From Paenibacillus taiwanensis DSM 18679 (GTDB lineage: Bacteria > Bacillota > Bacilli > Paenibacillales > Paenibacillaceae), in assembly GCF_000425125.1 (NCBI RefSeq), contig NZ_KE384306.1:831705-895704 (forward strand): DNA of 64,000 nucleotides, given 5' to 3'. The position numbers and the translations under genes were made by a program. The notes under the pieces are model-generated. The model was not told the origin of the DNA. It saw only the letters and a list, made by a program, of their open reading frames with translations, and did not search any database. Positions 14,601 through 54,041 of the stretch are shown piece after piece (positions within the stretch are counted from its first letter, which is position 1; the number at the start of each line of letters is the position of its first letter).

Positions 14601-14615
14601 TACATAACGACGAAC

Positions 14616-14800: not shown

Positions 14801-16090
14801 TTGGTACAAAAGTGGTTCGAGCAAGCCAAGCTTGGTATCTTTATTCATTATGGAATTTATGCAGTGGATGGCATCGCTGAATCTTGGTCCTTTTATAACG
14901 GTCGCATTTCCCACGAGCAGTACATGAAGCAATTAGATGGCTTTACGGCCAGTAGGTTCGATGCGGACAAGTGGGCAGACTTGATTGAGCAGTCAGGTGC
15001 GAAGTATGCGGTACTTACGACAAAGCATCATGATGGAGTAGCCTTATGGGATACGATGTACAGTGATCTTAACGTAGTGAAGCAGACGCCTGCGCAGCGT
15101 GATCTCATAAAAGAGTACGCAGATGCGATCACCCGAAAGGGAATCAAACTTGGAATGTACTATTCTTTAATTGATTGGTCTCACCCAGACTATCCAAGTG
15201 TATACGAGGGTGGCAAAGTACCAACGGATTTGAGCTCAGTTAATCGCTTCTCGAGTCCACTCGACGGTGTTCAAGATGAAGAGAAATGGAAGCGGTTCCT
15301 TGAATTCAACAATAATCAGTTACGTGAATTGCTGACCAATTATGGTCAAGTGGATTTACTCTGGTTTGATGGCGATTGGGAAAGAAGCGCAGAGCAATGG
15401 AACTTGCCGGAGTTCAAGCAATATCTGCAATCGTTTAACCCCGATATTATTATAAACTCCCGTCTGCAAGGACACGGAGATTATAAAACACCGGAACAAG
15501 GGATACCGATAACTCGACCTGAAGGACCTTGGGAATTTTGTACGACCATTAATAGTTCTTGGGGTTATCAGCCAAACGATCACCATTACAAAACACTTCA
15601 TCAAATCATACGGATGTTTTGTGATTGTATTACGATGGGTGGCAACATGCTGCTTGATATTGGACCGTTGGAAGATGGGACGATTGATAAGCGGCAGGAG
15701 GACATTTTGCTCGGTCTAGGCGACTGGATTCGTACACATGAAGAAGCTGTGTTTGGTACAACGGAAGGCATTCATACACGTTATTACTTAGGCGGCAGTA
15801 CAGTGTCACAAGATAAACGTTCTTTATACTTGTTCGTTTATGACGCACCTAAGGAATGTATTTGCTTAAAAGGTTTATCGAATAAAATTAATAAAATTAC
15901 TGTTTTACATTCAGGTAAAGAGCTGACACATGATATACATGGTGGTGTGCCTTGGTTTAACATTCCAGGAACGACATGGATTCATATGACCCCAGAGGAT
16001 ACGCATGAGCAGGTCACTGTACTTAAATTGGAACTTGAAGGCGAGCTTGACATGTATGGAGGTTCTGGTGCAGTAGTCACCCATAATTAA
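14801..16090 (+). CDS. Alpha-L-fucosidase family (GH29) glycosidase
   Basis: A 429-residue glycoside hydrolase of family 29. The N-terminal TIM barrel shows WFEQAKLGIFIHYGIYAVDG, YAVLTTKHHDGVALWDT and the nucleophile region DLLWFDGDWERS, where the Asp of WFDG is the expected catalytic nucleophile. A short beta domain follows (about 330-429). No signal peptide is present, so it is an intracellular enzyme acting on imported fucosides or similar oligosaccharides. The start is TTG at 14801 with AAAGGAGGAG seven bases upstream. The gene is monocistronic; no sugar transporter is adjacent. The family call is strong, but exact sugar specificity is not readable. Confidence 0.88.
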   Translation: MVQKWFEQAKLGIFIHYGIYAVDGIAESWSFYNGRISHEQYMKQLDGFTASRFDADKWADLIEQSGAKYAVLTTKHHDGVALWDTMYSDLNVVKQTPAQRDLIKEYADAITRKGIKLGMYYSLIDWSHPDYPSVYEGGKVPTDLSSVNRFSSPLDGVQDEEKWKRFLEFNNNQLRELLTNYGQVDLLWFDGDWERSAEQWNLPEFKQYLQSFNPDIIINSRLQGHGDYKTPEQGIPITRPEGPWEFCTTINSSWGYQPNDHHYKTLHQIIRMFCDCITMGGNMLLDIGPLEDGTIDKRQEDILLGLGDWIRTHEEAVFGTTEGIHTRYYLGGSTVSQDKRSLYLFVYDAPKECICLKGLSNKINKITVLHSGKELTHDIHGGVPWFNIPGTTWIHMTPEDTHEQVTVLKLELEGELDMYGGSGAVVTHN

Positions 16091-16167
16091 GGGAATGACA
16101 CGCTTTAGATGTAAGCTTCAGGCATATAGTTTATGTTATGCAATTTGAGATATCGATAACTCATTTT

Positions 16168-16200
16168 AAAACAACGTGGACCAGTTCCTCGTTGTTTTTT
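16168..16200 (+). terminator. Intrinsic terminator after the GH29 gene
   Basis: Arms AAAACAACG and CGTTGTTTT with a 13-base loop and a T-rich tail. The following stretch to 16330 shows no gene. Confidence 0.75.
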
Positions 16201-16330
16201 ATTTTTGGTGTTTTGTCATGAGGTGACCTCAAGCGAGTGCTTGTACCTTACTGAAACGGTGCAGACATAACGACAGTGAAAAATAGGGCTGTCTGAGCGT
16301 AGTTGAAAGCTCTTGTAAAGGAAATGTAAA

Positions 16331-16362
16331 ATTATTTATTTGCTTTGAGCAAACAAATAAAT
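16331..16362 (+). promoter_or_regulatory. Palindromic operator upstream of the MarR gene
   Basis: An inverted repeat centred on TTG at 16345-16347: the left arm ends TTATTTGCT and the right arm begins AGCAAACAAATAA, with 13 of 14 positions self-complementary. It lies 35-66 bases before the MarR start and just upstream of TATAAT at 16375-16380. MarR proteins bind such palindromes, so this is a good candidate autoregulatory site. Confidence 0.6.
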
Positions 16363-16396
16363 TATATTTAACTATATAATTTAACGGAGGGCTCAT

Positions 16397-16840
16397 ATGT
16401 CATCTTCACACGACGAGTTACGCAAGCTTGCGCTCGGAACTATTCGGCTTGTTCAGGAGTTTAAGAAAGCGCAGGAGTTGCGGACTGAAGTGGATCGCAT
16501 TACGTTTGAAATATTGATGCTGGTCAAAAATCGAGGCAGAATCCGACCGTCTGATATTGCCAATGAGCTTCATTTTAACCCTTCCTCCATTACAAGACGT
16601 ATACAAGCTTTGAAGCAATCTGGTCATATCTCGGTAACATCAGATCCTGCTGATCTGCGATCGAGTGTAATTAGTATCTCTTTGACTGGAGAAGAGGAAC
16701 TGTTCAAGTTTTTGGATAAGAGTGCAGATGGATTAGAGCGTATAATGGAGCAGTGGGATGAAGATGATATTAAGCAGTTTGCTGATCTCTTATGTCGTTA
16801 TACAGATACGATGAGGGATTGGCGGCTAAACAATGTATAA
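16397..16840 (+). CDS. MarR family transcriptional regulator
   Basis: A 147-residue winged-helix regulator. The DNA-binding core (about 35-100) reads ILMLVKNRGRIRPSDIANELHFNPSSITRRIQALKQSGHISVTSDPADLRSSVISISLT (in segments), with the MarR wing motif D-P-A-D-L-R-S. Flanking helices form the dimer interface. It probably represses its own gene through the palindrome just upstream, and perhaps the phosphate transporter gene downstream, although 258 bases separate the two. The ligand is unknown. The start ATG is preceded by ACGGAGGG. Confidence 0.88.
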   Translation: MSSSHDELRKLALGTIRLVQEFKKAQELRTEVDRITFEILMLVKNRGRIRPSDIANELHFNPSSITRRIQALKQSGHISVTSDPADLRSSVISISLTGEEELFKFLDKSADGLERIMEQWDEDDIKQFADLLCRYTDTMRDWRLNNV

Positions 16841-17098
16841 CCTCATACAAGTTGCTAAATAAAGCCGTATACAGGTGGGAAATGGTACGGTTTTGTAAGG
16901 GTTATCGATCACTTTAGTGCTATGTTTCACAAAGTAATATACCAGGTAGAGGATTTGCAGGATTAAAGTATGAGGGAGCTGAGTAGATGGACAAGTTCGG
17001 CGAATATATGAGCTGCAAAAAGAGAATGAATAAGATGAAGACGTAACATGCATGTCTGAATATTACATACATTCTACATATGAATTAGGGGCTCGGAC

Positions 17099-18088
17099 AT
17101 GGATATTAACTTCTGGATATTAGGATTAGTTATTGTACTAGCACTTTCTTTTGACTTTATCAATGGATTTCACGATACGGCTAACGCGATCGCCACTTCC
17201 GTATCAACGCGCGCGTTAACACCTAAAGCTGCGATTATTCTTGCCGCTGTAATGAATTTTATCGGTGCTATCTTATTTACAGGGGTAGCCGAAACGATCG
17301 GGGGAAGCGTTGCTAATCCCGCCGAACTGGATAATGGTATTCAAATTGTTATTGCAACGCTTATTGCTGCGATTATATGGAATTTGGTGACATGGTGGTT
17401 TGGTATTCCTTCCTCCTCCTCTCACGCCTTGATTGGGGCATTGACAGGCGCGGTTTTTGTAGGTGCTGGCGCTAGTATGGTGAAGTGGAATGGTTTTATT
17501 GATATTGTGAAGGCGCTCATTTTCTCACCACTGATCGGGTTTGCGATCGGGTACATCATTATGAAGCTGCTGAAATGGATTTTTGCTAGCCGTAACCCGC
17601 ATTCCGTTAACAGAGGATTTCGTACGATGCAAATTTTTACGGCTGCACTTCAAGCTTTTACGCATGGCACAAATGATGCGCAGAAAGCGATGGGAATTAT
17701 TACGTTTGCTCTCGTCTCAGCAGGCACACAGGATACGTTGGCTGTGCCGCTTTGGGTGAAGTTGTCTGCCGCCACCGCAATTGCCTTAGGCTCATCTGTT
17801 GGCGGATGGAAAATTATTAAAACGATGGGGTCCAAAATATTTAAGATTGAACCGATTAATGGATTTGCTGCTGACATTACTGGAGCTAGTGTAATCTTTA
17901 CGGCAACGATGCTTCATCTGCCAGTTAGTACAACACATGTGATCACGTCTGCTATTCTTGGTGTCGGTTCTGCCAAACGTTTCTCTTCTGTTAAATGGTC
18001 TCTTGCTGGAAGGATCGTTGTAACATGGTTTATTACGATTCCGATTACTGCTCTGTTGGCAGGCTTAGTATATACAATATTGTTCTAA
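17099..18088 (+). CDS. pit: Pit-family inorganic phosphate transporter
   Basis: A 329-residue PiT (PHO4) carrier with about ten membrane segments. Both duplicated family signatures are visible: FDFINGFHDTANAIATSVSTRAL near the N-terminus (in two parts) and AFTHGTNDAQKAMGII in the second half. It imports metal-phosphate or phosphate driven by the proton gradient. Unlike many Firmicute pit genes it is not preceded by a DUF47 (PhoU-like) gene; only a weak 19-codon reading frame lies just upstream. A strong terminator follows. Confidence 0.93.
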   Translation: MDINFWILGLVIVLALSFDFINGFHDTANAIATSVSTRALTPKAAIILAAVMNFIGAILFTGVAETIGGSVANPAELDNGIQIVIATLIAAIIWNLVTWWFGIPSSSSHALIGALTGAVFVGAGASMVKWNGFIDIVKALIFSPLIGFAIGYIIMKLLKWIFASRNPHSVNRGFRTMQIFTAALQAFTHGTNDAQKAMGIITFALVSAGTQDTLAVPLWVKLSAATAIALGSSVGGWKIIKTMGSKIFKIEPINGFAADITGASVIFTATMLHLPVSTTHVITSAILGVGSAKRFSSVKWSLAGRIVVTWFITIPITALLAGLVYTILF

Positions 18089-19605: not shown

Positions 19606-20484
19606 ATGGAAATTAATTTGGAATGGTATCGTGTCTTTTATTGGACAGCTTGCACGAGCAGCCTTACAAGAGCAGCGGAACGGCTGCACATTACACAGCC
19701 TGCGGTTAGTCATACATTAAAGCAATTGGAGATGAAGCTTGGCGGGCAGTTGTTTGTCCGCACATCCAGAGGGGTCAAGCTAACAACTGAAGGCGAAGTC
19801 CTCTTCAAATATGTGGAGCAAGCGTTCAGCTTTGTGGCGGCGGGCGAGAAAAAAATCGGTGAGATGCACCAACTCCAAACGGGGGAAATCAATATCGGGG
19901 CCAGCGATACGTTATGCAAACATTACTTGCTGCCGTATTTAGAGCAGTACCATGAGCAGTACCCCGAGATTCGGATTCGAGTCACTAATCGAACAACACC
20001 TGAAACACTTTCACTGCTGAAAGAAGGTAAAATTGATTTTGGCATCGTTAATTTGCCTGCGGAAGATGCTAAAGTTGAATTTCGTACAAGCTCTGTACTG
20101 CAAGATTGTCTGGTGGGAGGAAAGCGCTACGCAGCTAAAGGAGGTACAGCTTTGCCGCTTCAACAAATTCATCATTACCCGCTATTAATGTTAGAATCAG
20201 GAGGCAGTACGAGACATTTTATCGATACATATGCTTCTAGTTTTGGTGTTACTTTACGACCAGACTTCGAATTGGGCAGCATTGATTTGCTTGTACAGTT
20301 TGCGCGCAGTGGTTTCGGGCTTGCATTTGTGATAGGTAACTATGTGGAGAAGGAATTGGCCGCTGGTGACTTGATCGAGATTCCTTTAGTTCCGGCAATA
20401 CCTGAACGTCAAATTGGTATTGCGACATTACGTGGCGTACCTCTATCTGCGGCTTCCGCTCGTTTCCTGGAACTGCTGCCCTAA
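19606..20484 (+). CDS. LysR family transcriptional regulator
   Basis: A 292-residue LysR-type regulator. The N-terminal winged helix (about 5-65) has SLTRAAERLHITQPAVSHTLKQLE; the rest is a periplasmic-binding-like effector domain beginning GEINIGASDTLCKHYLLPYL. It faces away from the purA paralogue, the classic arrangement for a LysR regulator controlling its divergent neighbour. The shared upstream region contains AT-rich dyads (for example TATAATGAAGGTATAATCAT). ATG at 19606 with AAGGAG ten bases upstream is preferred over an in-frame start 13 codons earlier. The effector is unknown; a purine-pathway intermediate is an inference from the neighbour. Confidence 0.88.
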   Translation: MEINLEWYRVFYWTACTSSLTRAAERLHITQPAVSHTLKQLEMKLGGQLFVRTSRGVKLTTEGEVLFKYVEQAFSFVAAGEKKIGEMHQLQTGEINIGASDTLCKHYLLPYLEQYHEQYPEIRIRVTNRTTPETLSLLKEGKIDFGIVNLPAEDAKVEFRTSSVLQDCLVGGKRYAAKGGTALPLQQIHHYPLLMLESGGSTRHFIDTYASSFGVTLRPDFELGSIDLLVQFARSGFGLAFVIGNYVEKELAAGDLIEIPLVPAIPERQIGIATLRGVPLSAASARFLELLP

Positions 20485-21235
20485 CACGCGGCACATGGCT
20501 GACTGCATCAAGTTTCATTCCAAGTGGGAGGGAAGATAGTTTTCTTAGCGGGGGAGGGGGAGCCAACTGGATGGCATAAAATTCAGCGCTTGACGATTTA
20601 GCTTAGCAGCTATATTATAATAGTTAATTAATAGGATGACGTCATTACCTGTTAAGCTACGAGTATATGGTGCAATTAAGCTCACTGTGCTCGCCTCTAA
20701 TTACATCAAGCTAGTAAGACACTTCTCCGTTTATTTCACATTTTTGATAATCGAACATCCTTCCTTTTAGTTGATTTGAATCCACATATGCTGTTTGCTA
20801 AACAATTTCCAATTACTTTCCCTGTTATCTCCTTAAATTCTGACTTCTCCTACATTCAGACAGCTTTATCGTCACATGATGCATAACGTCTATTTGTGCT
20901 GTATCTCGTCGTACTCTACACGTATGCACTTTCATTATTCTTCCTAATCGTTTATGAGGCAACTATGCGGTAATTTCCCCTTTTCTTTAAGTCTACCCTT
21001 TTACGGCTTTGAAAGAACTTCTGATATGCAATCACTACTTTTATGATTAGTGCGGGTGTATTCCGTTGTGTCTACAGTTATAATGTATGCGCTTTCAAAT
21101 TAGGCGGGTTGGAAGCCAAGCTTCAGAGGTCCTTGTTCCGCTCATTAACATGGAACTATATTATTTTGACTATTGAAATCAAAACGGTCGCCCAAGTAGA
21201 AAAAAATAGTTTGAAATTAATATTTAAAAATCTAC
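20485..21235 (+). other. 750-base spacer, no convincing gene
   Basis: AT-rich and, from about 20680 to 21010, strikingly pyrimidine-rich on the plus strand (many TTCC, TCTT, CCTT runs). A promoter-like TTGACG-N17-TATTAT lies near 20592-20620, pointing right, with no reading frame behind it. No duplicated precursor peptide, tRNA or known RNA motif was recognised. Confidence 0.4.
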
Positions 21236-21264
21236 TTGACATCCGATAAAAAGATGTATATTAT
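21236..21264 (+). promoter_or_regulatory. Promoter of the lanthipeptide operon
   Basis: TTGACA (21236-21241), a 17-base spacer and TATTAT (21259-21264), about 65 bases before the precursor start codon. Confidence 0.75.
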
Positions 21265-21332
21265 AGCATTACAAACAAGAAATAACATAAATGAAATAAA
21301 TATCCATTTATATTTGAAGGGAGGTTATCCAG

Positions 21333-21437
21333 ATGGGTAGAATTCTCAATCTTCAAAAGTTGCAAACGGCAAGCAAGTTGTCTGATTTGGATCAAGAGGC
21401 AATCAGCATTTCTTCTTGTGATTCTCAAAGCTGCTAA
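21333..21437 (+). CDS. Class III lanthipeptide precursor peptide
   Basis: A 34-codon gene. The leader contains ILNLQKLQ, matching the (I/L)xLQ motif that class III synthetases bind, followed by an acidic SDLDQEA stretch. The C-terminus is SISSCDSQSC. It holds Ser28-x2-Ser31-x2-Cys34, and also Ser25-x2-Ser28-x5-Cys34; both fit the S-x2-S-x2-5-C pattern that gives labionin or lanthionine rings in class III products. A GGGAGG ribosome-binding site lies ten bases upstream. It precedes the LanKC gene by 92 bases and shares its promoter. The precursor role is inferred from motif and position; the exact leader cleavage point is not known. Confidence 0.85.
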   Translation: MGRILNLQKLQTASKLSDLDQEAISISSCDSQSC

Positions 21438-21453
21438 TTGTAAATGGATGAGC

Positions 21454-21482
21454 GAAGGACAGTGTGATTCACACTGTCCTTC
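21454..21482 (+). terminator. Strong hairpin between precursor and synthetase genes
   Basis: Perfectly complementary 14-base arms GAAGGACAGTGTGA (21454-21467) and TCACACTGTCCTTC (21469-21482), one base apart, so 12 or 13 pairs with a small loop. The tail TACTTAATT is only weakly T-rich. It probably acts as a partial terminator or stabilises the precursor mRNA, so that precursor is made in excess over enzyme. Confidence 0.75.
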
Positions 21483-21529
21483 TACTTAATTGTAGTGTGT
21501 ATTTGGAATAAAGGAGGCGCTTTGATCTT

Positions 21530-42952: not shown

Positions 42953-42992
42953 TATTGTAAGTTATTATGCGGTTCACGGTGCAACATGTACC

Positions 42993-43013
42993 TTTACACT
43001 TTTGTAGTGTAAA
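42993..43013 (+). terminator. AT-rich hairpin after the methyltransferase gene
   Basis: TTTACACT and AGTGTAAA are perfect 8-base arms around TTTGT. It could end the upstream transcript or be an operator, since its AGTGT core recurs in the repeats that follow. Confidence 0.5.
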
Positions 43014-43031
43014 ATAAATCAGCATGCAATG

Positions 43032-43076
43032 CAGTGTGGAAAGCAGTGTGACTTCAGTGTGGAAAAAAAGTGTGGA
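43032..43076 (+). repeat. Four phased AGTGTG repeats upstream of the pilus-like operon promoter
   Basis: CAGTGTGGA (43032), CAGTGTGAC (43044), CAGTGTGGA (43055) and AAGTGTGGA (43068) occur in the same orientation with spacings of 12, 11 and 13 bp, about one helical turn each. The last copy overlaps the -35 element. The arrangement suggests cooperative binding of a transcription factor on one face of DNA. Confidence 0.7.
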
Positions 43077-43101
43077 CAAATGAAAGTTTGCCTTTTATAA
43101 T
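43073..43101 (+). promoter_or_regulatory. Promoter upstream of the pilus-like operon
   Basis: TGGACA (43073-43078), a 17-base spacer and TATAAT (43096-43101). Transcription would begin near 43108 and run through the leader terminator into the kinase gene. Confidence 0.75.
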
Positions 43102-43142
43102 GACATCATCACGTACCAGAATATTCAAATGTGGGAAAGCAT

Positions 43143-43181
43143 CCCGAGCGCGGCCATAGGCTGTGTTCGGGTTTTTTTGTG
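43143..43181 (+). terminator. Terminator inside the leader of the pilus-like operon
   Basis: A 13-pair stem (CCCGAGCGCGGCC with GGCTGTGTTCGGG, four G-T pairs) closed by ATA and followed by seven Ts, ending 30 bases before the first start codon. It lies downstream of the promoter, so it is either an attenuator of the operon or the end of a short RNA of about 75 bases. Confidence 0.75.
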
Positions 43182-43209
43182 TGTATTTGCATGAAAAAGG
43201 AGGGATAAA

Positions 43210-44754
43210 GTGCGTGTGCCGTCAAGATTGCAGGAGGGTAGTTTGTTAGCGCAGCGTTATCGCATTATGAAGTTGATCGGTACGGGCGGAATGAGCTACG
43301 TATATCTTGCCAGAGATGAGAGACTGATGGGCAAGCAATGGGCTATTAAAGAGTCCATCCCGTTAAGACATAATCAGTACCCTTTAGCTAGGGAGGCCCA
43401 ATGGTTAACGGAGTTAAAGCATCCCCATTTACCTTTGATTGTAGATTTCTTTCCTCCCCATGACGAGTGCAGTCACGCCTATTTGGTGATGGAGTATATC
43501 GAGGGAGAGACGATTGCAGAGCGTATGATACAGAAGTCCTTTTCATTTTTGGAGACGATGGAGTACAGCATTAAGTTGTGCGCAGCAATGGGCTATTTAC
43601 ACCAGCATGTTCCTCCTATTATTTATCGGGATTTGAAGCCATCTAACGTTATGATAACAGCTCAAGGAGGAGTTAAGTTAATTGATTTTGGAATTGCGCG
43701 ACAGATGAGGGAGGATGCGTACGCAGATACGATCAAGCTAGGTACAGTTGGATTTGCAGCGCCAGAGCAATATGCCGGCAAGCAAAGTGATGCGCGTACA
43801 GACTTATATGCAGTTGGTGCTTTGATGGCCTATATGCTAACAGATGGACGATGGTATGGCATGTCTGATTTTAAAGGAGGGGTGCTGCGCTCGGATGTGC
43901 CCGAGCAATTTGCCTCTGTGTTGCTGCGGCTGCTAGATAATAATCCGGAAAATAGGTACCAGAGCGCAGAACAATTACGCGATGTTTTACAGGAATATAC
44001 GAAGCGTAACGATAATGCGTTACTCACAAGCGACTTTTCTGCTGTGCCTACAGACAGCTCGGGTAAGCGTATGCAATTATCACGGGGAGAAGTATTTGCT
44101 CTTATGGGTTCAGGAGATGGTGCAGGCACTACTCACACTGCAATTATGATCGCACATGCTTTAAGTAATTGGCTTAAAGTTCAGGTTGCTTATATGGATT
44201 ATAGTAACGAGATCCACTCTAGTTCGGTTGTTGACCCTATTATACAGGCGGTTGAAGGGCAAAGTAGTGGGCGAGATATTGATAAGCCGTTTAAGTGGAG
44301 AGGGGTTACGTATTTAAGCTTACCACAACTTAAAGAGAAGCATGAAGGTCACATATTACCTCATTTGCAGACGGAATACCGCTACGTCGTTCTTGACTTG
44401 GGTAGTGTGCATGCACATACCGGCATGGATGAGTTTATGAGGGCAACCTTCAGCTTATTAGTAGGATCGGCTGCGATTTGGCGTCAACAGGAGACGACAG
44501 CAGCAGTGAACATTTTTGCGTCAAGGAAATATAGCTATTGGTGTTATGGTGTCCCGCATTACGATGATGCTGATCTGCTCAAGCATCCTGCGCAGCAAGC
44601 TAGTCAGCAAGTCATTTCTATACCGACTTGTGCTGACCCGTTTAGTGGGAATGAAGACGTTTGGAAGTGGCTGCAATCCTGGACAGGAATAAATAGACAC
44701 AAAAGGCGCAGATTTGCATGGCCGAAGTGGCTAATTCCTACCAGAAAGTTATAA
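43210..44754 (+). CDS. Ser/Thr protein kinase fused to a MinD/CpaE-like domain
   Basis: A 514-residue cytosolic protein. Residues 17-265 are a Hanks-type kinase with glycine loop GTGGMSYVY (24-32), Lys47 in AIKE, Asp141 and Asn146 in YRDLKPSNV, and DFG at 159-161. Residues about 290-480 look like a MinD/ParA-type domain, LMGSGDGAGTTHTAIMIAHAL (shown split: GSGDGAGTTHT at 300-310), then VAYMDYS and YRYVVLDLGS. The P-loop lacks the lysines of KGGxGK(T/S), so ATP hydrolysis is doubtful. No extracellular sensor is present. It is the first gene of the pilus-like operon; GTG at 43210 follows AAAGGAGGG. A role in phosphorylation control of the machine is inferred. Confidence 0.88.
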   Translation: MRVPSRLQEGSLLAQRYRIMKLIGTGGMSYVYLARDERLMGKQWAIKESIPLRHNQYPLAREAQWLTELKHPHLPLIVDFFPPHDECSHAYLVMEYIEGETIAERMIQKSFSFLETMEYSIKLCAAMGYLHQHVPPIIYRDLKPSNVMITAQGGVKLIDFGIARQMREDAYADTIKLGTVGFAAPEQYAGKQSDARTDLYAVGALMAYMLTDGRWYGMSDFKGGVLRSDVPEQFASVLLRLLDNNPENRYQSAEQLRDVLQEYTKRNDNALLTSDFSAVPTDSSGKRMQLSRGEVFALMGSGDGAGTTHTAIMIAHALSNWLKVQVAYMDYSNEIHSSSVVDPIIQAVEGQSSGRDIDKPFKWRGVTYLSLPQLKEKHEGHILPHLQTEYRYVVLDLGSVHAHTGMDEFMRATFSLLVGSAAIWRQQETTAAVNIFASRKYSYWCYGVPHYDDADLLKHPAQQASQQVISIPTCADPFSGNEDVWKWLQSWTGINRHKRRRFAWPKWLIPTRKL

Positions 44755-44786
44755 GTAAAGTGAGATTGTAATAAGGATGTGATGCT

Positions 44787-45929
44787 GTGATCAAACGTTG
44801 GACGAGGAAAACGAGGCTAATTGTAGTTGCTGGAGCAATAAGTGCAAGTTGTGTAGGCGTTATAAGTGGTACTGTTATCGTTTACTCGCAGCATGTGTGG
44901 TCACAGGAACGCCAACGACTGGAGATGGATATAGAGAAGGCACGGAAGCAAGTCTCATCTTCCCCGAAGTTGATAACCAATTCTTCATCTGGAGTTAAAC
45001 AGGTATGGAGATTCAAGAAGACTTTACAGTCGGGATATCCACTAACTGAGCAGGACATTGAACGAGTTGTTCTACCAGCAATGTGGATTCCCGATCAACA
45101 AGTTACGAGAAAGGAGGATATCGTGGGAAAGCTGCTTAAATTGGATGTTACCGCACGGACGCCTGTGCTGGCATCAATGCTAGTAGCAGGGGATGTATTA
45201 GCGGACGATGTCCGCTGGATGGAGACAGCAGTTATTCAGCTTCCACTTGAATTATTGGAAGGTGACGTTTTGGATGTACGGATCCGGTTTGCGGATGGTC
45301 AAGATTTTGTAGTGTTGTCTCACAAAATGGTGGAGAAGCTCAAGCCGGCTATTGTATGGATGCAACTTTCAGAGCAGGAGTTGTTAATGCTGTCAAGTGC
45401 ATGTGTCGATGCTTATGTGAATAATGCTCAATTATATGCAGTCCGTTACGTTGATCCAATGTTACAGCAACCAGCGGTTATCAACTATCCGGTTAATGCT
45501 GAAGTTTTGGCATTGATAGATAAAGACCCTAACATAATTAAAACCTCCAAGGCGGTGCTGTCGGCACAATCCCGTCGCGTATTGGAATCCCAATTGGATA
45601 AATTAAGAGTAGTGGACCCTCAACGAGGCAATTTTGCTAGCGGGCAACCCCGTGTTTATGGAGGTAGCAAGGAGCCGGTTATGTCTACTCCAGGATTAAT
45701 GAGTACGAATCCCAACGTGCTGCCGCTGTCTCCATTTACAGGGCAGCAGAACGATACCACACCGCGTTCATCTGAAGAAGATGGGGGCTCTGCAGCACCC
45801 TCGCATCAGTCGAACAGTTCTCCAAAACCAATTGCTCAACCAACCTTTTCAAACGATACTGATCGACATCTACCTAATTCCACTATAAATGAAGTAATAC
45901 CTGAGCTTGAAATGAAACCATCTAAATAA
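44787..45929 (+). CDS. SAF-domain protein, CpaB/RcpC-like pilus assembly factor
   Basis: A 380-residue protein with one N-terminal membrane segment (about 10-32), a short coiled region, and a SAF domain (about 72-145: TLQSGYPLTEQDIERVVLPAMW, then LKLDVTARTPVLASML). A beta-rich part follows (150-245) and then a Pro/Ser/Thr/Asn-rich tail of about 100 residues. This layout matches CpaB/RcpC of Tad pilus loci, which in Gram-negatives works with the outer-membrane secretin; in a Gram-positive it may guide the fibre through the wall. The start is GTG at 44787 with AAGGATG upstream. It lies 32 bases after the kinase gene. Confidence 0.8.
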   Translation: MIKRWTRKTRLIVVAGAISASCVGVISGTVIVYSQHVWSQERQRLEMDIEKARKQVSSSPKLITNSSSGVKQVWRFKKTLQSGYPLTEQDIERVVLPAMWIPDQQVTRKEDIVGKLLKLDVTARTPVLASMLVAGDVLADDVRWMETAVIQLPLELLEGDVLDVRIRFADGQDFVVLSHKMVEKLKPAIVWMQLSEQELLMLSSACVDAYVNNAQLYAVRYVDPMLQQPAVINYPVNAEVLALIDKDPNIIKTSKAVLSAQSRRVLESQLDKLRVVDPQRGNFASGQPRVYGGSKEPVMSTPGLMSTNPNVLPLSPFTGQQNDTTPRSSEEDGGSAAPSHQSNSSPKPIAQPTFSNDTDRHLPNSTINEVIPELEMKPSK

Positions 45930-45952
45930 TTAGACAAGGAGATAAACACGAG

Positions 45953-46684
45953 ATGAAACTTTCTTATTTTGTTGGGGCATGTGACAAGAGTGACATGCTG
46001 CTCGGCATATGCACGTTGCTGAGCAGATTAAATCGGCGAGTGCTGTTAGTTGATGCCATGTCGTCACCATGGCTAAAGTATCGCAATCAAACTTGGTTGA
46101 CAAAAGAAAAATGGTCCCATTGGAAAGGGATCGATACAGTGTCAGCCGTCATGAATTGGGATGAGCTAGAAGAACTAGCTAATGGGTACAATATTCAGCT
46201 TAGTGAATATGACGATATTTTTATCGATACAGATCGTGTTGCTTTTAGTGAAGCGCCCTTATTTATCGAGGCGCATGCAAGATATATTGTGCAGACGGTG
46301 GAAAGTCATTCGTTGCACAGGAACTTGGAATGGCTAACTACATTTAGCTTACTGCATGACACAAAGTTGGATGGTAAGTTGCAGTTTATTATTTTGCATG
46401 CAATAGACAAAGAGCAGGATCAGTTGTACGTAGAAAGACTTTTACATACATCGGGTTATCATTCAGCCAGCGAAAGTGTTGTCATACCATACGATGAATC
46501 CGATTGGACAGCAAAGCTGAACAACGAAACTGAGGATATAATCAATGTCTCGATATATGCTCGTGCTACCAAGTTGGCATGGCGAAAAATTGTGGAATCG
46601 AATTTTGGCCCGCTTGCCGACAAAGCGTGGCGTCATTGTATGAAGCAGCCACAGAAGGGGATGTGGTTACATAATGCCATGTAA
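45953..46684 (+). CDS. MinD-like protein with degenerate P-loop, copy 1
   Basis: A 243-residue protein. The start MKLSYFVGACDKSDML followed by RLNRRVLLVDAMSSPWL has the strand-loop-helix-strand pattern of MinD/CpaE proteins, but the P-loop is replaced (GACDKSDM). The middle (YDDIFIDTDRV) corresponds to the Walker B strand. It is probably a non-hydrolysing paralogue acting as a structural partner in pilus placement or assembly. ATG follows AAGGAG; the 3' end overlaps the next gene by 11 bases. The homology is judged from pattern alone. Confidence 0.6.
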   Translation: MKLSYFVGACDKSDMLLGICTLLSRLNRRVLLVDAMSSPWLKYRNQTWLTKEKWSHWKGIDTVSAVMNWDELEELANGYNIQLSEYDDIFIDTDRVAFSEAPLFIEAHARYIVQTVESHSLHRNLEWLTTFSLLHDTKLDGKLQFIILHAIDKEQDQLYVERLLHTSGYHSASESVVIPYDESDWTAKLNNETEDIINVSIYARATKLAWRKIVESNFGPLADKAWRHCMKQPQKGMWLHNAM

Positions 46685-47609
46685 GCATTGGTGCTTATCT
46701 CCTGCATCTCGCCATGTATTTGGGCAGTCAACTATTGCATCTATCCTTGCGGTGAGGTTAGCTGTACAACATGGTATGCGTGTCTTAATTGTACATAATG
46801 ACGAGTTAAATAATGGGGCGGAACAATTGTTATGCAGCTCAAAATATCATTCGGCACACGTAACAACTTCCTCTGCGCGATATGGGGATGTGCCTGATGG
46901 TTGGACGGCTGTCCAGCGATATTTAAAGTCACATCAGTTAAATGCTGAGCTTCTTGTGTCATGTACAACTCCAGTAATTCCTAAGTTGGACATTATTCGA
47001 GTACCAGATCTCTTTGACACTAGGGATGACCATTCTAATGAAATGACCGCACTTATGTCGAGCTGTATTCATTGGATGACTACTGCTTATGACATCGTTA
47101 TATGGGATTGGAACGTCCGTGACATTTCGATTGCAGCTACAACGAAGGAGGAACGAGAGGAGTGCAGCCTATCAAGCAAATATAACTGCTTTCATTGGTT
47201 AGCTGAAGAATGTTTTGGTCTAATTCAGATTATGAATCAGGCGCGCACGAACACAGTTCGTAGTCCACAAGTAGTTCGATTTGAATCTGATCCCTTGCCT
47301 AGTGGAACCCGATCAAAGTACCGATTAGGCATCATAAACATGTATGATCCAGAATTGTCGATCAGCTTAACTCATTTGAAGCGAAAATACAAATCTCATC
47401 ACATGTTTGCCGTTCCTTACGATTCAGCACTCCGTAATAGCAGTGCGGTTGGAACCTTATTACCTTATTTAATGAGGTTAAGCTATCGCATGGGTCAAGG
47501 GGAGCATGTACCTTTATTAAGAGGCATGGATAAGGTTGTTGAACATATCATTGTTTGTTCCAATGCAGTAGGACGCCAGTCATGGGACGGTGCAAGGCAG
47601 TGGGGATAA
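46674..47609 (+). CDS. MinD/ParA-like protein with degenerate P-loop, copy 2
   Basis: A 311-residue protein. The N-terminus SPASRHVFGQSTIASILAV and then GMRVLIVHND mirror a MinD P-loop and following strand; GQST stands where GK(S/T)T is usual, so the signature lysine is missing. A second acidic strand is YDIVIWDWN. It overlaps the previous gene by 11 bases, and its TAA shares bases with the ATG of the next gene (TAATG), so all three are translationally coupled. With the kinase C-terminus this is the third lysine-less MinD-like domain of the operon. Function inferred: localisation or assembly of the Tad-like apparatus. Confidence 0.6.
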   Translation: MPCKHWCLSPASRHVFGQSTIASILAVRLAVQHGMRVLIVHNDELNNGAEQLLCSSKYHSAHVTTSSARYGDVPDGWTAVQRYLKSHQLNAELLVSCTTPVIPKLDIIRVPDLFDTRDDHSNEMTALMSSCIHWMTTAYDIVIWDWNVRDISIAATTKEEREECSLSSKYNCFHWLAEECFGLIQIMNQARTNTVRSPQVVRFESDPLPSGTRSKYRLGIINMYDPELSISLTHLKRKYKSHHMFAVPYDSALRNSSAVGTLLPYLMRLSYRMGQGEHVPLLRGMDKVVEHIIVCSNAVGRQSWDGARQWG

Positions 47610-49531
47610 TGTTTAAGCTCTACGGGGTGCTCTTCATAATTATGACGACATTGCTTATAGTTAGTGCCCTTATTTGGCGAAAGTGGAGGCGGAAGCACAA
47701 GACGCAGCATTCCTCCAGCACAATGTGGAACTGGGAGGAATTGATTCGAATGGTACGTGAGACGATCCAGCAATGGACGAGTGATCCGCTGCTGGATCAT
47801 TACGATAATGATGAGACGTATCGAAGAGAATTCACACGTCGAGAATCATTGCGTCGGGCATTACGTGTATGTAATAGTGGGGACCGAACTCAGAAGGAGT
47901 TCGTCAAGGATATCATTTCAGAGTTGATTACTGCACACGTTGTTTGGACAGAAGCGCAATATAATTTGTTAATTCCTTTCCATAGGGCATCCGAAATGAG
48001 CATTAAAGACAAATTTGATATTTTACTGTTTGTTTATACAGAACGATATGGTGCAGATGCTATGCATGAGCTTATTCAGAAATATAAATGGGATCAAATG
48101 AGACACCACTATAACTCAAATGGTCAGTGGGAACCGTCTTATGAAATTAGCGAGAAGGATATAGATGCAGCGTTTCGTCAAGAACGTATTCATTTACAGG
48201 ACAAAATGCGGATTCGCCTTATAACTCAACGTATTTATGAACAATATAAAGGTTTGTCCGTCATAGATGAACTGCGTGATCAACGTGTTGATGGCATATC
48301 TGGGGGAGTAAGCGGAATGTCCACCTCAACATTTGAGCAAGTATATGCTAATGGTTTTCGCGTTCATGAAATAGACAATAAACAATCTCGATCTCATCCC
48401 ACTGCTTCGCGCTCCTATGACAGTGTGTGGCTGTTTTATAAAGGAAAATCTATCCGTATGTCATTTTTAAGCTTTGGAAATGATGCTGAACTGAGACGTA
48501 TATGCCATAACATCTATAAGTATAGGACACCTGGCCCTTTAACAGAAGCAGACGGTTATCGAGTTAATGATTTGAAAGATGGATCAAGGATTGTAGTTAT
48601 GCGTCCTCCTTTCTCCGAGTCGTGGGCATTTTTCTTGAGAAAGTTCGACAGGACGAATCCATCTCTTGAAAAGCTTATTCCCGATAAAGGCTCACAAGAC
48701 GTGATTCAATTGTTACGGTATTTAATGAAGGGAGCTTGTGTGACGGCGATAACTGGCGCGCAAGGCTCCGGTAAGACGACACTTCTGATGGCGATTGTGG
48801 AGGCCATTTATCCGTTTTATCCGCTTCGAGTGCAGGAACAGGCATTTGAGCTTCATTTGCGCCAACTATACCCAGAGCGCAACATATTAACATTACGTGA
48901 GACGGAGCGTATTAGTGGACAAGCAGGTCTGGACGTCCAAAAGAAAACAGATGGATCTGTTCATATATTAGGTGAGGTGTCTACAGACCCCATTGCGGCA
49001 TGGATGATTCAGATGGCCCAAGTTGCCAGTTTATTTACGGTGTTCACCCATCACGCCAAGACGTTTCCCGATCTGATTATGTCCCTGCGAAATTCATTGT
49101 TAAAGACAGGGATGTTTCATGATGAAAAAATTGCGGAGCAACAAGTGGCTTCAATAATTCATGTAAATGTTCATCTGGCAAGAGACCCTACAGGCAAGCG
49201 ATATATTGAACGTATAACGGAATGCATCCCCTTATTAAAAACACGGCATCCCAGTTCTTTGTTAGATGAAGATGTGGAGGAGATGACGAGGAACGCTCCA
49301 ATCAGCAGCTGGTCGTCATTTATTGAGGTGGCAAGCGACTATTACAAACAGTGCTTAAATCAACATTCGTATAGTTATCGTAATATTATGGAATTTAAAA
49401 ATGGCCAATACATATGGGCAGAAGGTTTGACGGAGCAATTAACAGCAACCATGCTTAAGGAAATGACAGAGGAAGATAATCAGGCTTGCCGGAACTGGCT
49501 ATTTTCAAGGGGGAAGCCACATGTCATTTAA
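47609..49531 (+). CDS. CpaF/TadA-like secretion ATPase
   Basis: A 640-residue protein. It opens with a membrane segment (about 4-22, YGVLFIIMTTLLIVSAL), which is unusual because CpaF proteins are normally soluble. The C-terminal half is a VirB11/CpaF-type ATPase: Walker A GAQGSGKTT (about 383-391), Walker B-like HILGEV (about 451), and the His-box region FTVFTHHAKT. It would power extension or secretion of pilin-like subunits. The start ATG overlaps the preceding TAA; an earlier in-frame start inside the previous gene is unlikely. The N-terminal 350 residues are divergent from known CpaF proteins. Confidence 0.85.
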   Translation: MFKLYGVLFIIMTTLLIVSALIWRKWRRKHKTQHSSSTMWNWEELIRMVRETIQQWTSDPLLDHYDNDETYRREFTRRESLRRALRVCNSGDRTQKEFVKDIISELITAHVVWTEAQYNLLIPFHRASEMSIKDKFDILLFVYTERYGADAMHELIQKYKWDQMRHHYNSNGQWEPSYEISEKDIDAAFRQERIHLQDKMRIRLITQRIYEQYKGLSVIDELRDQRVDGISGGVSGMSTSTFEQVYANGFRVHEIDNKQSRSHPTASRSYDSVWLFYKGKSIRMSFLSFGNDAELRRICHNIYKYRTPGPLTEADGYRVNDLKDGSRIVVMRPPFSESWAFFLRKFDRTNPSLEKLIPDKGSQDVIQLLRYLMKGACVTAITGAQGSGKTTLLMAIVEAIYPFYPLRVQEQAFELHLRQLYPERNILTLRETERISGQAGLDVQKKTDGSVHILGEVSTDPIAAWMIQMAQVASLFTVFTHHAKTFPDLIMSLRNSLLKTGMFHDEKIAEQQVASIIHVNVHLARDPTGKRYIERITECIPLLKTRHPSSLLDEDVEEMTRNAPISSWSSFIEVASDYYKQCLNQHSYSYRNIMEFKNGQYIWAEGLTEQLTATMLKEMTEEDNQACRNWLFSRGKPHVI

Positions 49532-51623
49532 CAACATATTAGTTGTTGTTCTTATATTAAGTAGTATGTGTGCCCTCGCAATCTGGATCAGGATCAACAG
49601 AGTGGAACGGTCACCGTGGCATAAGGTTATTTATTTCGAGCGTCGAACAGATATTTCAAGTATACGAAGCGTAATTCGGACAAGTTATCGTCTTTTGAAT
49701 CGTATTCCAGTAATTCAGTCAAAAGTCAAAAAAGTACGTCTTAGGCTAAGTGTGCTGTACGGTTACGATGAGTGGTTATTGCGAGAACAGACGGCCAAAG
49801 TGATGTGGGGAGTGTTTGGGACAATTGTCGCTGTCATCCTTGTATTTTGCATGTTTGATCAGGACTGGATTTCAGTGTTAATGCTTCTGATCGTACTTAG
49901 TGTGGCTGAAAGTTTATATATAGATTTCGTTGTTGATAAGGCAGAACGGAAGTTGCTTCATCAATCGATTGGCATGTTATCTTATGTTCGGCATGACTAT
50001 CATCGTCATCGTATGATTGAACTCTCCATTGAAGAGGCGTTACAACACTCGGCCCCACTTGTAAGACCACATGGTGAGAGACTGTTACGTTGTATAGTCG
50101 ATCCAGAGGATGAGTCAGCCTTGGCAGCTTATGATGAAGCGGCGCCGCATCGATATTTTAGATTGTTTGCGCGGTTGAGCAGGATGGTCTCTGAATATGG
50201 AGATCCTTTGAATGAACAGCGATCATCTGTTTTTCTGCAAGGCATCTCGATGTTAATTCGTGAGATGCACACAGAACAGCTTTTGCGCCATAAACTTAAC
50301 ATACATATGAGTGGACTTAAAGCTATCGCGGTAATACCTGTACTTTTTGCATCCCCCATCGAACAGTGGGCTAGAGCCTGTTTTCCTTCAATGAATGAAT
50401 TTTACACGAGCAAGTGGGGGTGGTTTGTCAAAGTTGTTGTAGTTGCAATTGTATTGGCGTGCCATCGATTGCTGGGGGAATTGCAATATTACAAAGCGAC
50501 TACTGTCCGTGCACAACTCCACACTTTTTCCGCTACTCGCATTCTACAATCCAGATGGATCCATGTTGTTGTCCTAAATTGGATCAAACACATTCCGAGT
50601 CGAACGCTTCAGGCAAACGTGCGCTCGTTACAGGAGTCCAATGTAGGAATATCGATTGTGGCGTGGTACAAACGTCGTCTGCTAGTATCCGTTGTTTGCC
50701 TTTTGTTCAGTGCGATTATATGTATCGGTATTCACTTGAGTATTGACTATGAATTATTGAACAAAGATCGGAGATGGACGACGTTATTGTCAACAACTGT
50801 TGCACCTTCGGGATGGCAATCGCCAGTGTCTAGCGATATTGGCGAAAGTAAGCTAGCGGATGAAGACAGACAACACATCAAACGATTAAAACATTGGGTG
50901 AAGGATGAAAAGCTGGCGACCTTGTCCATTAGTGAGCAGAAGCAGGTGCTGCGAGAGCGGATAACTACCCAATATCCGAAATGGAGTCAACAGGCAATAA
51001 AACAGATGAGCGAACGTCTTGTAGAAATACATACTGAATTTATGTACAACGGATTTAAGTGGTGGGAAGTGCTAATCGTTATAATGGCTGGCGTAATCGG
51101 ATATTATTTCCCAAGCGTACAGCTTGTATTGAAAAGGCGTATCCGTACGATGGACATTCGGATTGAACTAAGTCAATTTTATGCTTTGACTATGTTATTA
51201 AGATCGTTTGAGCGAATGACGGCGGAACAGTTACTGGATTGGATGGCTCGAAGCTCAACAAGTTGCCGTGGTGCGTTGTTACATTGTCAGATGATGTGGG
51301 AAAGTGGAGCAGAGGAAGCACTTACTACACTGCGGCGTAATATCCCGTACCCCGAATTTGTAAGGTTTGTAGATCAATTGGAGGCGGCGTATGAACATGT
51401 ACCACTAAAAGAAGCATTTGATGATGTGGAGCAAAATTGGCTATTTGATCAAGAGTGGAGGCGTCAACAAGAAGAGCAAAGCGTGGAGGTGAAGGCAGTT
51501 TGGGGTAAATGGCTTGGATTTGCTCCGATGTATGCAATTACGTTTTTATATTTAGTACTCCCGTTAGTATGGATAAGTGCTCATCAGATGAATCAGTCTT
51601 TTACACAAATTCAACATCTCTAG
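49521..51623 (+). CDS. Large T2SF-type membrane protein (TadB/TadC-like)
   Basis: A 700-residue membrane protein. Hydrophobic segments occur near residues 5-22, 92-132, 255-275, 290-310, 390-412, 520-540 and 665-685. The C-terminal part (LSQFYALTMLLRSFERMTAEQLLDWMA and on, in pieces, to PYPEFVRFVDQLEAAYEHVPLKEAFDDVEQ) is a T2SF-like helical domain, as in TadC and GspF. The N-terminal half (SIGMLSYVRHDYHRHRMIELSIEEALQHSAP) looks like a diverged second copy. Thus one polypeptide may replace the TadB/TadC pair. It overlaps the ATPase gene by 11 bases. Its role is the inner platform for the ATPase. Confidence 0.75.
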   Translation: MSFNNILVVVLILSSMCALAIWIRINRVERSPWHKVIYFERRTDISSIRSVIRTSYRLLNRIPVIQSKVKKVRLRLSVLYGYDEWLLREQTAKVMWGVFGTIVAVILVFCMFDQDWISVLMLLIVLSVAESLYIDFVVDKAERKLLHQSIGMLSYVRHDYHRHRMIELSIEEALQHSAPLVRPHGERLLRCIVDPEDESALAAYDEAAPHRYFRLFARLSRMVSEYGDPLNEQRSSVFLQGISMLIREMHTEQLLRHKLNIHMSGLKAIAVIPVLFASPIEQWARACFPSMNEFYTSKWGWFVKVVVVAIVLACHRLLGELQYYKATTVRAQLHTFSATRILQSRWIHVVVLNWIKHIPSRTLQANVRSLQESNVGISIVAWYKRRLLVSVVCLLFSAIICIGIHLSIDYELLNKDRRWTTLLSTTVAPSGWQSPVSSDIGESKLADEDRQHIKRLKHWVKDEKLATLSISEQKQVLRERITTQYPKWSQQAIKQMSERLVEIHTEFMYNGFKWWEVLIVIMAGVIGYYFPSVQLVLKRRIRTMDIRIELSQFYALTMLLRSFERMTAEQLLDWMARSSTSCRGALLHCQMMWESGAEEALTTLRRNIPYPEFVRFVDQLEAAYEHVPLKEAFDDVEQNWLFDQEWRRQQEEQSVEVKAVWGKWLGFAPMYAITFLYLVLPLVWISAHQMNQSFTQIQHL

Positions 51624-51635
51624 GGGATGATCTTA

Positions 51636-52115
51636 ATGAATAATGCCCAATCGGCGCTTAAAGTTGCAGCAGGTATATTTTTAACAATTGCACTGATTAC
51701 TATCGTTGTATTGTTGTTTGTTTCTGCACAAGAAGCGACAAAGACGGCACAGAATGAGTTCTCTTCTATACAGACCGAATTAAGCAAAGCTTCATTTACG
51801 GTCTATGACAATACGACTGTAAGCGGCTCGCAGGTCGTTAACGCCATTCGCAAATTTAATCAAAAGGAGCAGTTCGGAATACGTGTAATTACGGGTAAAA
51901 ATAAAGTGGCAAACGCTAGCCACCCTGGAATCTCCTATGGTTACGATGTGAACCTTGACGGTACGATTAATAACGCTATTATGCCGAACAGTGCAATATT
52001 ACTGGCGACAACGGAATCATTAGATACATACGTAAATCCAAGCGGTAAATTTAAAGCTAGTCTAATTGTTGATTCATCAAACGTAACTAGAGGAATTGTA
52101 TTTGATCAACGTTAA
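51636..52115 (+). CDS. Pilin-like small membrane protein 1
   Basis: A 159-residue protein: a short polar N-terminus, one long hydrophobic helix (about 9-32, VAAGIFLTIALITIVVLLFVSA), a helical stalk (QEATKTAQNEFSSIQTELS) and a beta-rich C-terminus with many Ser, Thr and Asn. The architecture is that of type IV pilin or pseudopilin. No clear prepilin peptidase site (G/A followed by E at +5) precedes the helix. ATG at 51636 is preferred because AGGGGAT lies eight bases before it. Position after the T2SF gene suggests a subunit of the apparatus. Confidence 0.65.
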   Translation: MNNAQSALKVAAGIFLTIALITIVVLLFVSAQEATKTAQNEFSSIQTELSKASFTVYDNTTVSGSQVVNAIRKFNQKEQFGIRVITGKNKVANASHPGISYGYDVNLDGTINNAIMPNSAILLATTESLDTYVNPSGKFKASLIVDSSNVTRGIVFDQR

Positions 52116-52136
52116 TTTACACGATTGGAGAAATTT

Positions 52137-52520
52137 ATGGGTTCTAATGGGAGAAATGTGGTGGAACTGTCTGTTGTAGTATTGTTATTTGTATTTTCCT
52201 TAATATATGCGTTGTCCAGTGCACAGGCGTCAGCAAGCACGTTGCAGCAATTAAATACAGCGAATGTGAATAAGGATCGTATCGTTCATTCTACAATCGG
52301 CTCAGTATCGGAGCCAACTTTGACAGGGGGTGACATTTTGATGATGCTAACACTCATGCAGCAGGAAAATATTAAAATAGTCGTGGGAAATGAGGCTGTA
52401 CAGTTAAATGTCAAGAACCTTGAGGAGGCTAATGTATCTATGATTAAGCTGAATAAATTATACAGTGAGACTACATATCGTGATCGTTCAGGCCAGATTG
52501 TACTTATTCATTATGTGTAA
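52137..52520 (+). CDS. Pilin-like small membrane protein 2 with prepilin-type motif
   Basis: A 127-residue protein starting MGSNGRNVVELSVVVLL. Gly5 followed by RNVVE puts a glutamate at +5, as in class III/IV prepilin leaders (G|xxxxE) cut by prepilin peptidase; a hydrophobic helix follows at once (about 8-28). The rest is a small domain. It is a good candidate for the fibre subunit. ATG at 52137 follows GGAG by six bases; an in-frame TTG at 52125 is less likely. No prepilin peptidase gene is in this window, so one must act from elsewhere if cleavage occurs. Confidence 0.65.
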   Translation: MGSNGRNVVELSVVVLLFVFSLIYALSSAQASASTLQQLNTANVNKDRIVHSTIGSVSEPTLTGGDILMMLTLMQQENIKIVVGNEAVQLNVKNLEEANVSMIKLNKLYSETTYRDRSGQIVLIHYV

Positions 52521-52531
52521 GGTGACGTGAG

Positions 52532-53083
52532 ATGGTTGACGTGTTGTCAAAGCTAATAGGATTCATTATTGCTATTTTGCTTCTATTTATATTTCCATTA
52601 CAACAATCATACGCCAGGCAGGCCGACATTCAGTATTTACATGTGTTTAAGAGTACGACTGAATTTACGGACGCCATTCGGGATATGGGTTATATTACAC
52701 CGCGTATGTGGCTAGATTTTCAAGATGAGCTTACGCAGCTTGGTATAATGATGGATATTAAGATGGAGCATTCTGCGAAGCGATATGATCCAATTTACGA
52801 TGACCCATTAAAGCCAGAGAGCTTTCATGAGGAATTTCTTGTTCGCCATGAAGTCACAAATACAGCAGATATTATGCAAATTTTATTTCCGCATAGTGCG
52901 GAGCCGAATGAAGCGTTAACTCGCCGATACACGCTGAAGACAGGCGACTTCATACAAGTAAAGGTGACTAATAGGCAGCAACTGGCGGCTGATGTGTTGT
53001 TGGAATGGTTGACGTCATCATTTTCAGAATGGAAGCGAATTGACGTTTCTGTTGGAGGAATGGTACGTAATGAAGATTATTAA
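52532..53083 (+). CDS. Secreted or membrane-anchored protein of the pilus-like operon
   Basis: A 183-residue protein I do not recognise. An N-terminal hydrophobic helix (about 7-24, LIGFIIAILLLFIFPLQQ) is followed by SYA-RQ, which could be a signal-peptide cleavage site. The remainder is a mixed polar domain (DIQYLHVFKSTTEFTDAIRD, YTLKTGDFIQVKV). By position and topology it may be a minor pilin-like or assembly protein. It starts 11 bases after the previous stop and overlaps the next gene by 14 bases. Confidence 0.6.
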   Translation: MVDVLSKLIGFIIAILLLFIFPLQQSYARQADIQYLHVFKSTTEFTDAIRDMGYITPRMWLDFQDELTQLGIMMDIKMEHSAKRYDPIYDDPLKPESFHEEFLVRHEVTNTADIMQILFPHSAEPNEALTRRYTLKTGDFIQVKVTNRQQLAADVLLEWLTSSFSEWKRIDVSVGGMVRNEDY

Positions 53084-54041
53084 GTTCGCACTCATAATGG
53101 CTGCCGTCAGTTTGCCGTGGTTTTGGAATAATCGTTTACAGGCCGAGGAGCAGCTACATCATTTGCGTTCTGTACAATCGTACAATTATTTTTTGGACAC
53201 TGCCGTTGATGATGCGGCGGCAACTCTCCATGCTAATCCAACAGACATCGATGCGCAGATGGGTTACGAATCGCCAAAGCACATTACAATTAATAAAGAT
53301 GCTGCACTGCGAGCGTTTATGGAAACGTTGTTTATAAATATTAGTATTGTGGATGACCGAATTAGCCAGGATATGCTGGCATCTTATATTCCAGCAATCG
53401 CAATAGTGGGCTATGATGGACTTGATATATGGACAGAGGAGGCCTATGTTGATCGTGAGGGGATCTCACATTTAAAACATGTATGGCTTCCTAAAATTCC
53501 TTTTACTCATACTGATCAAAAAGGTAATGTTTATGCTTTTACACTAGACGATTATGTAACGGTATATCAGCCTGAGCTAAAGCAGTGGATTAAAGGCTAC
53601 CAGCGAGAGCTTATGCAGCATTCAACGTTACCTCTGTTAAGGGATCAAACTCTGTTCGAATCAGTACGGCGCACGACGATCGTAAATAAGGTTCAGGAAG
53701 AGCTTGCTTACCGAGTGAATAGGAACAATAATAATTCAAAACGGATAGGTACAGCATATAAGTTTACGTTTCCTACTATATCAGGAGAAGAATGGGCCAA
53801 TTCTATAAACGACGTTGGTGTACTAGCTTGTGTACAGGACCTTCCGATGGGGGCTTATAAGTTTAATAACTATGCGATTGGTGGTGCCCGATTAGTACGA
53901 AACCATTTATTTTATGGGACTATACGGGATGGGGTTAAGATAGCCCTTCCCGAGTCATGTAAACCACTTGTTGTGGAGGAGGTGCTGGCCAATTCCAGAG
54001 CAGCTGCGAAGCGAGGTTATTTCGTAAAGCGCTGTTTATAG
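53070..54041 (+). CDS. Membrane-anchored protein ending the pilus-like operon
   Basis: A 323-residue protein not recognised by family. The N-terminus has a short membrane helix (about 5-20, KFALIMAAVSLPWFW), then LQAEEQLHHLRSVQSYNYFLDTA, a helix typical of TadE/minor-pilin stalks, and a large extracytoplasmic domain with aromatic-rich segments. Its only two cysteines are distal (VGVLACVQD, LPESCKPL), plus a C-terminal RCL. It could be a tip or adhesin-like component. ATG at 53070 follows GGAGGAATGG; the upstream in-frame start lies inside the previous gene. No terminator is obvious after it. Confidence 0.6.
   Translation: MKIIKFALIMAAVSLPWFWNNRLQAEEQLHHLRSVQSYNYFLDTAVDDAAATLHANPTDIDAQMGYESPKHITINKDAALRAFMETLFINISIVDDRISQDMLASYIPAIAIVGYDGLDIWTEEAYVDREGISHLKHVWLPKIPFTHTDQKGNVYAFTLDDYVTVYQPELKQWIKGYQRELMQHSTLPLLRDQTLFESVRRTTIVNKVQEELAYRVNRNNNNSKRIGTAYKFTFPTISGEEWANSINDVGVLACVQDLPMGAYKFNNYAIGGARLVRNHLFYGTIRDGVKIALPESCKPLVVEEVLANSRAAAKRGYFVKRCL

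Follow-up and report, generated by a model that had tools for sequence, protein, structure and literature searches.

Tad/Flp (type IVc) pilus loci, represented by cpa of Caulobacter, tad of Aggregatibacter and, among monoderm bacteria, by loci of Bifidobacterium and Micrococcus, combine genes for a CpaF/TadA-like ATPase and a TadB-like platform with co-operonic CpaE/TadZ-like and CpaB/RcpC-like genes and genes for small N-terminally anchored subunits. The same combination is found in the window, the stretch of 64,000 nucleotides analysed here (contig C1:831705-895704 of G000, a 5.25 Mb Paenibacillus-type genome), where ten open reading frames (ORFs), all on the + strand, occupy positions 43210-54041 as one tight block. 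The block departs from the Tad pattern in that TadB and TadC are apparently a single chain, a kinase fusion is present, Flp and TadV are missing from the locus, several small subunits have no library match, and the ATPase is on average 23% identical to the canonical CpaF of related genomes. In its motor, platform and positioning parts it would operate in the manner of a Tad machine. Because it has neither a Flp pilin nor TadV within the locus, the block is classed as a divergent Tad-related variant and not as a Tad locus. It probably encodes a divergent Tad-type (type IVc) surface-filament machine of Bacillota, with noncanonical pilins and with control by a kinase and perhaps an attenuator.

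Tad-like loci of a comparable kind have been noted before. Imam et al. 2011 (PMC3244431) report, in five Bacillota, loci termed 'no Flp_2' that lack Flp and prepilin signals and that carry tadV. By their description, they resemble the window block in having tadA, tadZ and rcpC homologues and no recognisable prepilin signal, in being distant from other tad genes (tadA being excepted from this divergence there) and in belonging to Bacillota. Unlike the window locus, which has no A24/tadV gene, they possess tadV and a recognisable tadC. A reading made from the sequence alone (hereafter the sequence-only reading) had not recognised the block as a described system. The system is real, conserved and undercharacterised; however, Gram-positive tad-like loci without prepilin-signal proteins were already noted in that paper, and the general idea is therefore not wholly undescribed.

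The genome also contains a separate, canonical Tad locus (C2:386962-397804; positions 6963-17805 of locus L003) that encodes CpaE, CpaF, TadB, TadC, Flp, an A24 peptidase and an FHA/DUF6382 protein. The two loci share the same general parts, but the canonical one has separate TadB and TadC proteins, a Flp with a G/MVELV signal, the A24 peptidase and the FHA protein. The sole A24 match of the genome lies there, at C2:395422, and this prepilin peptidase might serve the window system too. That the FHA protein reads phosphorylation by the window kinase is speculative. In one relative (locus L156, G003:C26:383800-400500) a second divergent ATPase gene is found ∼ 6 kb from canonical CpaF, and TadB/TadC-like genes are located between that CpaF and an A24 peptidase.

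Conservation of the block and its motor proteins

Conservation was assessed over 81 loci, namely the window and 80 named loci; the latter are the best 80 of 96 found by patterns derived from the window ATPase and so are not an unbiased census. Full flanks, with > 6 kb to the left of where the ATPase starts and > 8 kb to the right of where it ends, were available for 68 loci, from Paenibacillaceae and Clostridia. Eight core families, comprising the SAF/CpaB-like protein, two CpaE/MinD-like proteins, the CpaF-like ATPase, the T2SF-like platform, the pilin-like proteins, s9 and s10, are all present in 67 of these 68, the window included; the sole exception is L110, whose contig ends at the point where s10 is missing. 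The sequence-only reading would have been refuted by a lack of co-conservation; the neighbourhoods instead speak strongly for it. A kinase-family gene is labelled in 35/68 full-flank loci, and the number of pilin-like genes per locus is two in 40/68, one in a single locus and three to nine in 27/68. Moreover, the 35 of 60 relatives that have a strong ATPase match (E < 1e-100) are also the 35 that have the platform, and both are present in all 19 same-genus genomes, that of the window included. This recurrence, in 67/68 loci and in 19/19 same-genus genomes, shows that the block is not a chance assembly. More widely, the platform profile matches 28 of 299 genomes sampled from the same class, and 26 of 291 from the class of the L102 genome (23 strong and three weak partial matches; genomes already known here are part of the sample). 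The nearest named locus is that of Paenibacillus sp. ACRRX, with an ATPase that is 85% identical.

The first gene (43210..44754, + strand; 514 aa), whose GTG start is preceded by AAGGAGG, encodes a Ser/Thr kinase, with a Pkinase match at 1.5e-36 and WAIK, YRDLKPSN and DFG motifs, joined to a C-terminal part that is CpaE/MinD-like (hhalign 97.8%), in line with the kinase-MinD fusion of the sequence-only reading. A CpaE-like gene (45953..46684, +; hhalign versus CpaE 94.4%, E 9e-8) adds to the CpaE/TadZ complement of the block; the P-loop pattern occurs in 0/81 members of its family. Between the two lies the gene for a membrane-anchored SAF-domain protein of the CpaB/RcpC type (44787..45929, +; 380 aa). 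This assignment, also made beforehand, stood: the window protein matches TIGR03177 at 4.5e-6, under the curated cut-off, and the SAF match of a relative, L083, is above cut-off at 1.1e-8.

The fourth ORF (46674..47609, +) is followed by the ATPase gene (47555..49531, +; 658 aa, with an N-terminal membrane segment and a possible later start at 47609). Its earlier assignment as CpaF-like is borne out by a match to the TadA profile TIGR03819 (2.1e-11, under cut-off), by the three PDB sequences matching at E ≤ 0.1, all of which are CpaF, and by loose patterns for the Walker A, GE(V) and His box motifs, which are present in 81/81 ATPases. The large platform protein T2F (49521..51623, +; 700 aa) had been taken as one T2SF protein in place of TadB plus TadC. 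For the N half this is supported, as it resembles TadB by hhalign (P 95-96%, E 2e-8 to 2e-9, with controls at ≤ 2.6%); the C half may be TadC-like, by topology only. A Pfam scan of the window protein gave no family. For 45 platform members, T2SSF (PF00482) is absent among the matches listed (25 of 45 Pfam families) and from the 25 NCBIfam families found. The two platform proteins named by a source, of seven found, are called 'GTPase SAR1' and 'hypothetical protein'.

Small subunits and possible surface-binding partners

The remaining four genes, all on the + strand, encode s7 (51627..52115; 162 aa), s8 (52125..52520; 131 aa), s9 (52532..53083; 183 aa) and s10 (53040..54041; 333 aa, N-terminally anchored, with a likely start at 53070 and kept in 67/68 full-flank loci). 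Profile comparison shows the families of s7 and s8 to be homologous (hhalign 97.7%, E 1e-12). Structure prediction with AlphaFold2 (AF2) covered s7 and s9. The s7 model (predicted local distance difference test score, pLDDT, 88.4) has a helix spanning residues 3-58 followed by a beta-rich head, and that of s9 (pLDDT 89.5) has a helix at residues 2-52 followed by an alpha/beta, beta-rich head. Both subunits are thus predicted to have a pilin-like layout, with an N-terminal helix of ∼ 50-55 residues and a head; s8, whose family is homologous to that of s7, is also classed as pilin-like. The best score of s7-s10 against the canonical TadE/TadG-like and Flp profiles, that of s7 against Flp (34.9%), falls within the 27-41% that canonical TadE/TadG-like profiles give against Flp. 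As for TadE/TadF, the profiles of s9 and s10 are not significant, and the pilin-like s9 model gave no significant match in the fold search.

In 216/223 s7/s8, 98/98 s9 and 71/71 s10 proteins, the tail in front of the hydrophobic segment does not exceed 10 residues; starts were picked by Shine-Dalgarno strength, and genes in which no such segment or no start could be detected were left out of the count. Matches to a loose class III motif occur in 7/223 s7/s8, 0/98 s9 and 1/71 s10 proteins, and the positives include s8 of the window (G/RNVVE) and its closest relative. Given the rarity of this motif, canonical prepilin processing appears unlikely, from sequence, for most of the subunits. The block contains no Flp-sized gene, and no Flp pilin with a class III signal and E5/Y6.

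Some relatives of s9 carry additional domains. All 46 s9 proteins of > 250 aa, from 23 clostridial loci, were scanned, giving Laminin_G_3 in 12/46, dockerin in 4/46, ALK_LTK_GRD in 2/46, and PKD and Big_13 in 1/46 each. Judged by these domain matches, s9 would take part in extracellular binding. In addition, DUF5704 genes are found 3' of s10 in 19 loci, frequently separated from it by a gene for an SLH or Cu_amine_oxidN1 protein, and inside the block in L117; the window genome has an SLH and DUF5704 pair on contig C4 (L163 5728-10382). By genome, DUF5704 and the platform are both present in 33 cases, the platform only in two, DUF5704 only in one (a fragment match) and neither in 24. The association is significant by genome (Fisher p 2e-13) and by genus (13/1/1/20, p 1e-7), with kinship beyond genus uncorrected. 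A full-text search for the name DUF5704 found no paper.

These links bear on a first alternative, in which s7-s10 form the short piston of a pseudopilus-type secretion system that exports DUF5704, SLH or Cu_amine_oxidN1 proteins. The presence of DUF5704 in 33/35 platform carriers, its position shortly downstream in 19 loci and the several minor-pilin-like genes per locus speak for such a system. However, the DUF5704 and SLH proteins begin, by eye, with ordinary-looking Sec signal sequences, and they should therefore need no special exporter; moreover, the binding domains on s9 suggest that s9 itself is displayed. Secretion is an unlikely account of the block.

Promoter, leader RNA and surroundings

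Upstream of the kinase gene, a sigma-A-type promoter-like site (TGGACA-17-TATAAT; 43073..43101, +) is conserved in the aligned relatives. The call rests on this conservation, since a promoter scan found such sites less often in this region than in shuffled sequence. It is followed by a leader RNA (model R1; 43105..43186, +), in which a short hairpin (43133-43145) excludes an intrinsic terminator (43143-43171, with a T-run). The interval first proposed for the operon, 42990..54041, is right for the genes, but its left edge covers the promoter and leader rather than a gene. In an alignment of 12 leaders (the window and 11 relatives), the short hairpin is paired in 48/48 cells, with two pairs altered on both sides in 5/12 sequences, and the terminator is paired in 90.4% of cells, with two-sided changes at four pairs. 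For both hairpins, paired cells and covariation score lie above all 500 shuffles, but the numbers of pairs with two-sided changes were matched by 280 and 197 of 500 shuffles, and further pair types likewise did not exceed shuffles; as the changes follow two clades, the independent covariation events are few.

In 19/19 same-genus genomes the R1 model has a match, located 4344-4569 bases 5' of the ATPase gene. Twelve of these probably supplied sequences to the model, which leaves an independent count of 7/7 (E 4e-10 to 7e-4). The 60 genomes contain ten other matches, all weak (E 1e-4 or worse), of which two are the opposite strand of the same site; the leader itself has no Rfam match. R1-like elements also precede the SLH-DUF5704 pair by ∼ 470 bases, in the window genome (L163 5173-5257, G000:C4; E 7e-5) and at G003:C24:137477-137561 (E 0.009), where they may reflect shared control or merely be the terminator of the preceding gene. 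The conserved leader with its mutually exclusive hairpins makes transcription attenuation plausible.

Successive ORFs as called are separated by 32, 23, -11, -55, -11, 3, 9, 11 and -44 bases, so that the tight co-directional spacing claimed from sequence stands. If translation began at later Met codons in the same frame, at 47609 and at 53070 (s10; with a good Shine-Dalgarno sequence), the two larger overlaps would shrink to ∼ -1 and -14. The upstream neighbour is, by eye, a methyltransferase-like gene ending at 42952. Downstream, a thiamine pyrophosphate (TPP) riboswitch (RF00059; 54136-54241) lies between the operon and what by eye are thiamine genes. In other loci, a ParA/ParB-like pair stands immediately 5' of the block (L066 5293-7006 and, judged from the order and lengths of the genes, L069, L070 and L072), and downstream of the block in L104 a 543-aa protein is encoded (19881-21511) whose N terminus is class III prepilin-like by eye.

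Proposed mechanism and significance

In the favoured reading, the CpaF-like ATPase would power the one-chain TadB-TadC-like platform, with the SAF/CpaB-like and CpaE/MinD-like proteins assisting. The s7/s8 pilin-like subunits would thereby be extruded as a filament or short pseudopilus, in which s9 and s10 are the putative minor or tip subunits. In the lineage of the window a Ser/Thr kinase is fused to the first CpaE-like protein, so that assembly is likely gated by phosphorylation; transcription may be gated by the promoter-proximal terminator leader. The output would be adhesion or surface binding, in which the co-occurring DUF5704 and SLH proteins probably take part.

Several observations weigh against this model. 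The locus has no Flp, no prepilin peptidase and no recognised secretin, an absence that the sequence-only reading had already pointed out. Searches with Foldseek/VIA-align returned no significant match of s7 or s9 to a pilin or any other solved structure, and s7-s10 have no significant profile match to canonical TadE/TadG-like proteins or Flp. The short N-terminal tails are still about the length of a type IVa leader. The platform scores only 1-5% against TadC by hhalign, though TadB and TadC reach 97.6% with one another, and for its C half no significant match was obtained to TadB, to TadC or to its own N half.

A competence pilus for DNA uptake is a very doubtful alternative. No ComGA/ComGB-like pair was found in the window genome, since its PF00437 matches are limited to the window ATPase and canonical CpaF and its PF00482 matches to canonical TadB/C, and for Micrococcus luteus a Flp pilus has been put forward as the competence pilus (cited in PMC8370563). 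However, the canonical Tad locus could itself carry out DNA uptake, the lectin and dockerin variants point to adhesion, and no DNA-uptake gene was recognised among the ten. Least credible is an accessory Tad locus that helps the canonical one without a filament of its own (its kinase acting, for example, on the FHA protein): although the canonical locus holds the single A24 peptidase and the FHA protein and one relative has a second ATPase-platform pair ∼ 6 kb from canonical CpaF, the block has a conserved ATPase, platform and set of pilin-like proteins of its own, in which the catalytic motif patterns are intact, and CpaF-strength matches also occur in 25/60 relatives that have no platform.

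The surface-filament reading can be taken a step further, if only tentatively, to a separate lineage of the type IV filament superfamily, widespread in Bacillota, with mainly leaderless, unprocessed pilins, a one-chain platform, gating by a CpaE-kinase and an attenuator, and swappable lectin or dockerin tips. Prepilin processing is regarded as general among type IV filaments. This rule becomes testable in culturable Paenibacillus with a large and conserved family in which most subunits have no class III motif, and existing annotation scarcely hints at the system. The putative filament is possibly kinase-gated, and the platform is perhaps an unsplit or re-fused TadB-TadC. In Clostridia, the putative tip subunits with dockerins and lectins might connect pili with the binding of polysaccharides and, were a leaderless-pilin lineage to exist, its swappable tip domains might attach pili to glycans or cellulosomes.
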